A stretch of 51,086 bases of DNA from a virus: IMG/VR virus record IMGVR_UViG_3300034105_001609, positions 1 to 51,086 of that record; one strand, 5' to 3'. The notes under the pieces were generated by a model, which was given only the letters and a program-made list of their open reading frames with translations, ran no database searches and was not told the origin of the DNA. Shown in pieces: positions 5,758-9,513 of the stretch (within the stretch, counting starts at the first letter, position 1; each line of letters starts with the position of its first letter). The position numbers and the translations under genes were made by a program.

Positions 5758-5937
5758 TTAGCCATTCATCCACTCTTCAAAACTTTTTAGAGGTTCACCA
5801 TTACGGGTAATGTCTCCACCTTTCCCGTCATTTGCACATTCAAGATATGTTTTATAGCGATCATTCAATGTCCCGTTGTATCGAGTAATTGTGATTTGTG
5901 GTTGGAAGCTTCCGTCTTTGTTTATTCCTGTTTTCAT
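5758..5937 (-). CDS. small hypothetical protein, 59 residues
   Basis: Direct translation gives MKTGINKDGSFQPQITITRY..., ending KSFEEWMNG. The composition is convincing for a folded small protein, and the start follows AATAAAAAATACATACATACATC-like DNA seen before other starts. No family recognised. It fills what would otherwise be a gap between 5679 and 6006. Confidence 0.55.
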   Translation of the reverse strand: MKTGINKDGSFQPQITITRYNGTLNDRYKTYLECANDGKGGDITRNGEPLKSFEEWMNG

Positions 5938-6005
5938 TTGATGTATGTATGTATTTTTTATTCGCTCGGCATCGTGCCTTGCTTGGGAATGAATCTACAG
6001 CATCA

Positions 6006-8367: not shown

Positions 8368-9087
8368 TTAGCAAGCCCGTGAGTATGTCATATCAGCCTG
8401 TTGCAGCTTGGGTTTGATCCAGTCAGCTTTGAATGATTGCCATCCACGGGTCACGCATTCTGTCAGTGCGTCTTGGAGTGTCAAGCCTGCAAGTTCAGAT
8501 TCTTTTTCGATCATGGCCAATGCAGTTTCTGTGAGTGGTGCGCGTTTAGCTTTTCGGACAGCAAGGAAATCATTCCATACCTGATCATCCACAGTGAATG
8601 GTTGAGCCGCTGTAGTAGTTTTCTTTTCTGTAGTAGTAGTAGAAGATGTAGAAGAAGACTGAAGAAGAAGTGTTGCCTTTTGGTTGATACCATTTGGCAA
8701 GCATTCCTCAACCACCCTTGCAAGTGTGGTTGAACCACCCTTGAGATTCTTCCTCATTTCAGCGGACTTTTTACCTCCTTCTGCACTTTTCCTTGCCCAC
8801 TCATTTTGCTTCACGATTTCCTGCTGAAGCCTTTCGTGAACCAACATCGAACCATTTTCTGGGTGTGGTTGGAACATGGTTGCAACGATGGTTGCAAGGG
8901 TAATTGAAGCACCCTTGCCAATCAAGCGTGCGATTTGTTCTGGATTGGAAGGTATGCTGCCGTGTTGCCAACAATAGCAAAGCAATCTCAAGTATGCGCC
9001 TTCTTCTTCAAGTGTCATCAATGCCACCCTCTGAGAACCTAAATAATCTGCGGGGTAGAACTGGAATGCTGGTCGTTTAATTTTCAT
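8368..9087 (-). CDS. DUF1376 replication protein
   Basis: A 239-residue protein. Residues 5-45 show the DUF1376 signature (FQFYPADYLGSQRVALM, then EEEGAYLRLLCYCW), a winged-helix-like domain of phage replication initiators. A low-complexity Ser/Thr linker near 145-160 leads to a C-terminal helical domain (WNDFLAVRKAKRAPLTETAL) ending RGWQSFKADW, common in phage replication proteins. It probably loads or recruits the DnaB helicase. The start is fixed by the domain beginning at residue 5. A strong intrinsic terminator ends only 6 nt upstream. Confidence 0.8.
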   Translation of the reverse strand: MKIKRPAFQFYPADYLGSQRVALMTLEEEGAYLRLLCYCWQHGSIPSNPEQIARLIGKGASITLATIVATMFQPHPENGSMLVHERLQQEIVKQNEWARKSAEGGKKSAEMRKNLKGGSTTLARVVEECLPNGINQKATLLLQSSSTSSTTTTEKKTTTAAQPFTVDDQVWNDFLAVRKAKRAPLTETALAMIEKESELAGLTLQDALTECVTRGWQSFKADWIKPKLQQADMTYSRAC

Positions 9088-9092
9088 AATCT

Positions 9093-9205
9093 AAAAAAAG
9101 ACCCGCCTCAAGTGATACTCCCACAAGGAATCTTATGGGCATGAGGCAGGCCAAATTTGTTTTAGTGTTTAGCGATGGTATCAAACATCGGCCTCAAATG
9201 AGGCA
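9093..9205 (-). promoter_or_regulatory. attenuator-like leader with intrinsic terminator
   Basis: On the minus strand a first hairpin (TGCCTCA 9205-9199 with TTGAGGC 9197-9191) is followed by a second, long one. In the second, CCTGCCTCA (9150-9142) pairs with TGAGGCGGG (9110-9102) around an inner 8 bp stem CCCATAAG/CTTGTGGG, then seven U residues (9099-9093). The same 7-mers occur in both hairpins, so segments can swap partners, as in antiterminator/terminator switches. The U-run ends 6 nt before the DUF1376 ATG, leaving no room for a promoter after it. Confidence 0.65.
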
Positions 9206-9213
9206 GCACTACA

Positions 9214-9513
9214 TTAAGCGTATCTTGCGCCTTTGTAAAGTGAAATTCTACGAGCGTGTGCGTTGTCACGTTTTGCCATGACATCGCCAATGCGGATAAT
9301 CAATCCCGTTTTTGCAGCTGCATTGAATACCGCTCCAAATGCGTTAGGATGGTTAGGAGGGTCTCCAACAAGTCCTCTGACATCCTCGGCATGAAATGTC
9401 ATGCCGCTGGATGCCATTGCTTTGATTATAGCCAGCGCAGCATCTTTCCAATCGTCTGGAGTGTTATCCATCACCTTGGAGCATCCTTTTTCTTTTAGCG
9501 TATAGCCGCTCAT
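9214..9513 (-). CDS. small winged-helix-like phage protein
   Basis: A 99-residue protein with DDWKDAALAIIKAM, then FHAEDVRGLVGDPPNHPNAFG and AVFNAAAKTGLIIRIG, ending in a basic segment. I recognise the pattern as a common small protein in phage replication regions that looks like a winged helix. Its ATG overlaps the preceding TGA (ATGA) and has the ribosome site AGGAGGG. It may help initiation or regulate the replication genes; this is inference. Confidence 0.6.
   Translation of the reverse strand: MSGYTLKEKGCSKVMDNTPDDWKDAALAIIKAMASSGMTFHAEDVRGLVGDPPNHPNAFGAVFNAAAKTGLIIRIGDVMAKRDNAHARRISLYKGARYA

Follow-up and report, generated by a model that had tools for sequence, protein, structure and literature searches.

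How does a phage replication initiator gene come to be expressed when a hairpin and a run of U, resembling an intrinsic terminator, stand directly before its start codon? The question is raised by an IMG/VR virus record of 51,086 bases, analysed here over its whole length (the window), whose minus strand encodes at 8368–9087 a 239-aa replication initiator with a DUF1376 domain (Pfam PF07120) and matches to PHROGs 678, 6451 and 9327, families annotated as O-like replication initiation and primosomal proteins. On the same strand, two small genes, an exonuclease-like gene and a RecT-like gene lie 5′ of the initiator, and genes for a cytosine DNA methyltransferase and a DnaB-type helicase lie 3′ of it. 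An earlier note, made from the sequence by itself, had proposed an attenuator-like leader with a terminator-like hairpin just before the initiator start codon, and this proposal is borne out by our analysis, with the paired segments kept by covariation in relatives. Within the initiator gene, direct and inverted repeats of AACCACCCTTG (window positions 8686–8918) are possibly the iterons of an origin, by analogy with lambda O. Elsewhere in the window, many gene starts lack a Shine-Dalgarno sequence and are preceded by A/T-rich stretches such as AATAAATATG, which suggests that initiation without Shine-Dalgarno is frequent among these genes. Two adjacent genes at 28–1932, one of them for a glycosyltransferase, share 62–74% identity with genes of Synechococcus T4-like phages, which hints at either a picocyanobacterial host or a transferred cassette.

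Three hairpins (H1, H2 and H3) were found within 9206–9085 of the minus strand. The four 7-mers on which the earlier note had been built (TGCCTCA at 9199–9205 and 9142–9148, TTGAGGC at 9191–9197 and 9105–9111, all on the minus strand) are located where it had placed them, as are the small hairpin, the long hairpin, the seven U and the downstream ATG; neither 7-mer is enriched in the window (8 found versus 8.1 expected, and 5 versus 7.1). The small hairpin, H1 (9191–9204, minus strand), consists of GCCTC-ATTT-GAGGC, with 5 bp and a 4-nt loop. H2 (9173–9190), overlooked before, lies between H1 and the long hairpin and also has 5 bp (CGATG-TTTGATAC-CATCG, with TTTGATAC as its loop). An A-rich linker at 9153–9172, delimited in alignments A4 and A5 and capable in the fold of weak pairing with the U-run, leads to H3 (9100–9152; −29.2 kcal/mol), which has an AUUC loop and the 8-bp inner stem previously described, whereas its base comprises 11 bp in the minimum-energy fold rather than the nine first reported. 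Base and inner stem are separated by an asymmetric internal loop, in which UG (9141–9140) faces nine nucleotides, AGUAUCACU (9119–9111). The U-run of seven (9093–9099), with a predicted RNA 3′ end at about 9093, is followed by AGATT (9092–9088, 5 nt) and by the initiator ATG at 9087–9085. Folding of 9214–9087, which had been suggested as a check, proved better than chance (z = −4.6), and that of 9205–9085 more so (z = −5.9); none of 200 shuffles folded as well as the leader region, and the opposite strand folded less well (z = −2.6). No Rfam family, riboswitches included, was matched at gathering score by the window or by relatives L003, L006, L014 and L025, just as the earlier note had been unable to assign the leader to a known riboswitch class, and in a permissive Rfam search the sole hit, to a miRNA on the other strand, was a chance match.

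Relatives were collected from IMG/VR by way of the initiator protein, leader patterns and the upstream protein; the pattern scans also returned many chance matches without the structure, and 26 distinct leaders were obtained, from which a covariance model (R1) was built. R1 found five members outside its training set, L322 at 100 bits and L329, L369, L355 and L346 at 92–97 bits. These five loci had been pre-selected with an H2 pattern, so that the R1 search was blind to H1 and H3 and not to H2. In the alignment of all 31 distinct leaders, which was made to R1 and is hence biased towards the structure by construction, 98.3% of cells are paired and compensatory double changes occur in 21 of the 28 pairs; the covariation score is 0.604, versus 0.221 after shuffling and at most 0.085 with slid partners. 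A plain MAFFT alignment of 16 leaders gave 96.6% of cells paired and 14 pairs changed on both sides. Each hairpin contributes to this signal in the 31 leaders. H1 occurs with 10 stem sequences, and has 98.7% of its cells paired and double changes in all five pairs; H2 has two stem versions (CGATG/CATCG and CATCG/CGATG), is paired in 100% of cells, shows double changes in three of five pairs and has a partly conserved loop; H3 shows double changes in 13 of 18 modelled pairs and has 13 different outer stems. The internal loop of H3, with UG on its 5′ side and nine positions ending in ACU on its 3′ side, is invariant in 31 of 31 leaders, and UG/ACU is kept even in L133, where the flanking H3 stem is largely replaced. 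This invariant loop and the conserved loop of H2 suggest a binding site, predicted here from their conservation.

Since G-U cells greatly outnumber A-C cells (57 versus 6 in the 26-leader alignment) and the other strand folds more weakly, we conclude that the leader acts as RNA of the gene strand, and a hairpin or cruciform at the DNA level was rejected on the same two grounds. Other candidates that were considered fared no better. A closing helix, TAGTG/CACTA, that surrounds H1 and H2 in the computed fold was discarded, CACTA being lost in L036, L041 and L039 with TAGTG kept, and TAGTG overlapping the predicted −10 and start region described below. So was a leader peptide read from the AUG in H2, the peptide not being conserved: the mini-ORF MFDTIAKH (window 9188–9162, minus strand) has similar counterparts in leaders sharing that H2 version, and the other H2 version has a start–stop (AUG-UAA), other frames or run-through instead. 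The leader is present in one copy per whole virus record, and a search for second copies in the same genomes gave none that was convincing, the match in the L133 record being weak (13.5 bits, E = 1.7). BLASTN of the leader region against isolated phages gave nothing, and a search in 300 bacterial genomes of the order of G001 (Achromobacter), which had no positive control and therefore shows little, also found none.

A promoter signature precedes the hairpins at a fixed distance. In the window, it comprises a predicted −35 element, TTTACA (9234–9239, minus strand), and, after a 17-nt spacer, a predicted −10 element, TAATGT (9211–9216), which overlaps the stop codon of the gene upstream of the leader (9214–9216). 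Both elements keep their position in the 26 leaders across four unrelated upstream contexts, namely the window type (TTTACA-17-TAATGT and variants), the L007 type (TTGACG-16-TATTTT and variants), L175 with L322, and L136. In all 26 except L136 (5–6 nt), the modelled leader follows 4 nt after the end of the sigma-70-like −10; in alignment A5, this −10 has invariant columns at its second and sixth bases, and conserved T columns mark the −35. A simple consensus scan missed the promoter at 9239–9211 because the −10 hexamer is a weak match, so that the assignment rests on conservation. Several members have a better-scoring promoter match more than 70 nt upstream, but positional constancy across contexts was observed only for the proximal site. 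Given a fixed promoter before H1, transcription is expected to begin with the first base of H1, at about 9204 (predicted start region 9202–9206, placed from the −10 position), and the leader RNA should be about 112 nt long. At the level of sequence, these comparisons establish the structure, strand, position and promoter signature of the leader, as well as its nature as RNA.

At its other end, H3 with its seven U has the sequence features of an intrinsic (Rho-independent) terminator, that is, a G+C-rich hairpin directly before a U-run. Scored as a hairpin plus T-run by a formula that reportedly comes from d'Aubenton Carafa and co-workers (threshold 0), 25 of the 26 leaders were positive, with 25.6 for the window and a slightly negative value for L136. 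In the fetched loci, which hold 2721 ORFs, 28 hairpin-plus-T-run sites with an energy of −23 kcal/mol or lower were counted just 5′ of an ATG; of these 28 strongest sites, 24 precede replication initiators, many of them relatives and so not independent. (A strong hairpin with a T-run was also seen at about 863–915 in L053, where it stands 5 nt ahead of a gene whose product begins MIMNRETLQYC; this gene was not identified as an initiator.) The distance from the U-run to the initiator ATG is about 0–10 nt in all members. No promoter fits between the U-run and the ATG; moreover, an in-frame TAG lies 6 nt 5′ of the ATG in the window, which also led us to reject a translation start further upstream inside the leader. 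For these two reasons, and in line with the earlier note, expression of the initiator has to depend on read-through. Both termination at 9093 and read-through of H3 are predictions from the sequence. Upstream of the leader the genes are not the same from one lineage to the next, which makes the earlier suggestion of a coupling between read-through and translation of the gene there an unlikely one.

The leader is not tied to one kind of initiator. In every member it ends at a replication-initiator ATG, and at least four N-terminal types of initiator are found behind it: DUF1376 (the window and L133), a second type (L025, L104 and L155), the L117 type, which has a DnaD-like part, and the types of L136 and L329; every one that was scanned matched the O-like family phrog_678. 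In isolated phages that have O-like homologues, no such leader precedes the gene, which directly adjoins or overlaps its neighbour, and in L138 the initiator overlaps the stop codon of the upstream gene; the leader is therefore a cassette of a phage group and not general to O-like genes. Other structured leaders were found in the same place. The int-alpA RNA (RF02996) lies directly before a DUF1376-type gene in distant phages (L050, 2847–2920; L055, 4271–4338), with a match just below the cut-off, again before a DUF1376-type gene, in L071 (4266–4340), and sequence similar to it is visible before the gene in many of L043–L081. It resembles our leader in being a structured RNA (its length is about 70 nt) that immediately precedes DUF1376-type genes, but the window and its close relatives do not match RF02996 and have another fold and sequence. 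In L028 and L031–L035, which belong to another phage lineage, the last 75 nt before the initiator ATG (about 5925–6000 in L031–L035) contain a long hairpin of another sort (GCCAGUCAGA...UCUGGCUGGC), whose internal loop is likewise asymmetric and long on the 3′ side, and a T-run a few nt before the DUF1376 ATG. The int-alpA RNA and this L031-type hairpin could be either distant relatives of our leader or independent solutions. Possibly a third type of leader is represented in L029 and L030 (about 5850–5997, before the initiator), where a long GAACGCCAGCAAGAC hairpin without a U-run follows TTGACT-17-TAATGT and smaller hairpins.

The reading that we favour, with moderate confidence, is that of a self-contained promoter and attenuator module for the replication initiator. 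RNA polymerase would start at about 9204 from the sigma-70-type promoter, transcribe H1, H2 and the A-rich linker and then meet the intrinsic terminator formed by H3 and U7. The initiator, and probably also the methyltransferase and DnaB helicase genes, would be transcribed by those polymerases that pass H3, whether these had begun at the leader promoter or further upstream, within the recombination genes. The loop of H2 and the internal loop of H3 would be a putative recognition site, bound by RNA polymerase itself or by a factor from the phage or its host, and this partner would set the level of read-through and hence the time or the dose of replication. We infer both that read-through is regulated and that a factor is responsible. 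Against a regulated switch stands a scan of all alignment column pairs, which found no conserved helix competing with H3, and against the module stand the weak consensus match of the −10 and the slightly negative terminator score of L136. A search of the larger ORFs against PHROGs gave no match to an antiterminator protein family.

Arrangements of this general kind are known. At lambda pR′–tR′ (6S RNA), a promoter and a short leader RNA are followed by a terminator that has to be passed for phage gene expression, and read-through to the late genes, which this site controls, needs Q bound at the DNA near the promoter. Here too, as judged by sequence, a promoter directly precedes a leader and a terminator, but the lambda leader is longer, the gene controlled here is a replication initiator, the RNA forms a covarying family and no Q-like factor was seen among the larger ORFs. 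In plasmids pT181 (repC) and pIP501 (repR), a terminator in the leader before the replication initiator gene limits expression and is switched by an antisense RNA. Our leader differs in this respect, as an antisense promoter, considered as a candidate and rejected, gave no match at a conserved place opposite the leader in 15 members. Replication genes of satellite phage P4 are gated by termination in a leader with which the P4 CI RNA pairs, whereas a counterpart of CI RNA was not seen here.

Several other explanations have to be weighed against the module. H3 might simply be an ordinary strong terminator between the recombination and the replication genes, a constitutive brake or insulator with a fixed, low and unregulated read-through. 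Its strong terminator features, the lack of an alternative fold and its site between two gene blocks all agree with this, but a plain terminator needs neither H1 and H2 nor a promoter of its own, and it does not need an internal loop that stays invariant through the stem replacement in L133; we consider the explanation unlikely, though not far-fetched. It is likewise improbable, in our estimate, that the end product is the short RNA itself, which would work in trans or at the origin as a phage small RNA; its 3′ end would normally be formed at the terminator, and the initiator would owe its expression to leakage. The promoter of its own, the compact fold and the terminator would suit a small RNA, and int-alpA RNA, which is a small RNA according to Rfam, occupies the same place in other phages; against this, in no member is the U-run more than about 10 nt away from the initiator ATG, and a free small RNA would not need to be so placed.

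The two 5′ hairpins invite comparison with the put RNAs of phage HK022, which are about 70 nt long with two stem-loops, putL being located just downstream of a promoter (PMC9378689). In both cases two stem-loops lie near the start of a phage transcript, right at the predicted start in ours, with terminators downstream (putL; PMC9378689), and H1 and H2 could by analogy bring about a cis modification of the polymerase that lets it pass H3 and the terminators after it. However, H1 and H2 together span only about 32 nt, as opposed to about 70 nt, and the stem and loop of H1 vary freely; no sequence match or detailed structural match to put was established, and a terminator that is always overridden would not be so closely conserved. 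Membership in the put group is not claimed because of this difference in length, and we regard a put-like action as very doubtful. Slimmer still are the chances of control at the level of translation, in which H3 and pairing of the linker with the U-run would hold the start site in the read-through mRNA. The linker can indeed pair with the U-run, the spacing to the ATG is short in all members and a Shine-Dalgarno sequence is lacking, but the pairing would consist of A-U pairs only and the T-run that is kept is of the terminator type. The switch proposed in the earlier note, with the second 7-mer pairing with the third as an antiterminator, is hardly credible: although this pairing is complete (6 of 6 pairs) in the window, L003, L004 and L027, it is so only there; over the alignment, 67.7% of cells are paired, with no double change and a score not above the shuffled control, and the 7-mer identity between H1 and H3 is not kept in relatives, where their stem sequences do not track each other.

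With the promoter and attenuator module as the preferred reading, the leader is probably a real and as yet undescribed brake or switch on phage replication. The RNA family appears to be new, although its general kind is known; it is set apart by comparison with Rfam and a brief literature search, and it may already have been described under another name. More tentatively, and with some doubt on our part, this undescribed family may be a portable cassette with loops to which a specific factor or RNA polymerase binds; the bound partner would control read-through and thereby the time at which replication starts, and the cassette would be kept while the initiator behind it is exchanged. According to our findings, a group of uncultivated phages has an RNA element that is absent from Rfam at the head of the replication genes. 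Moreover, structured leaders of apparently unrelated kinds, namely the one described here, int-alpA RNA and the L031-type hairpin, recur directly before DUF1376 and O-like initiators. If controlled read-through does gate initiator expression, the leader would constitute a simple RNA timer for phage replication.
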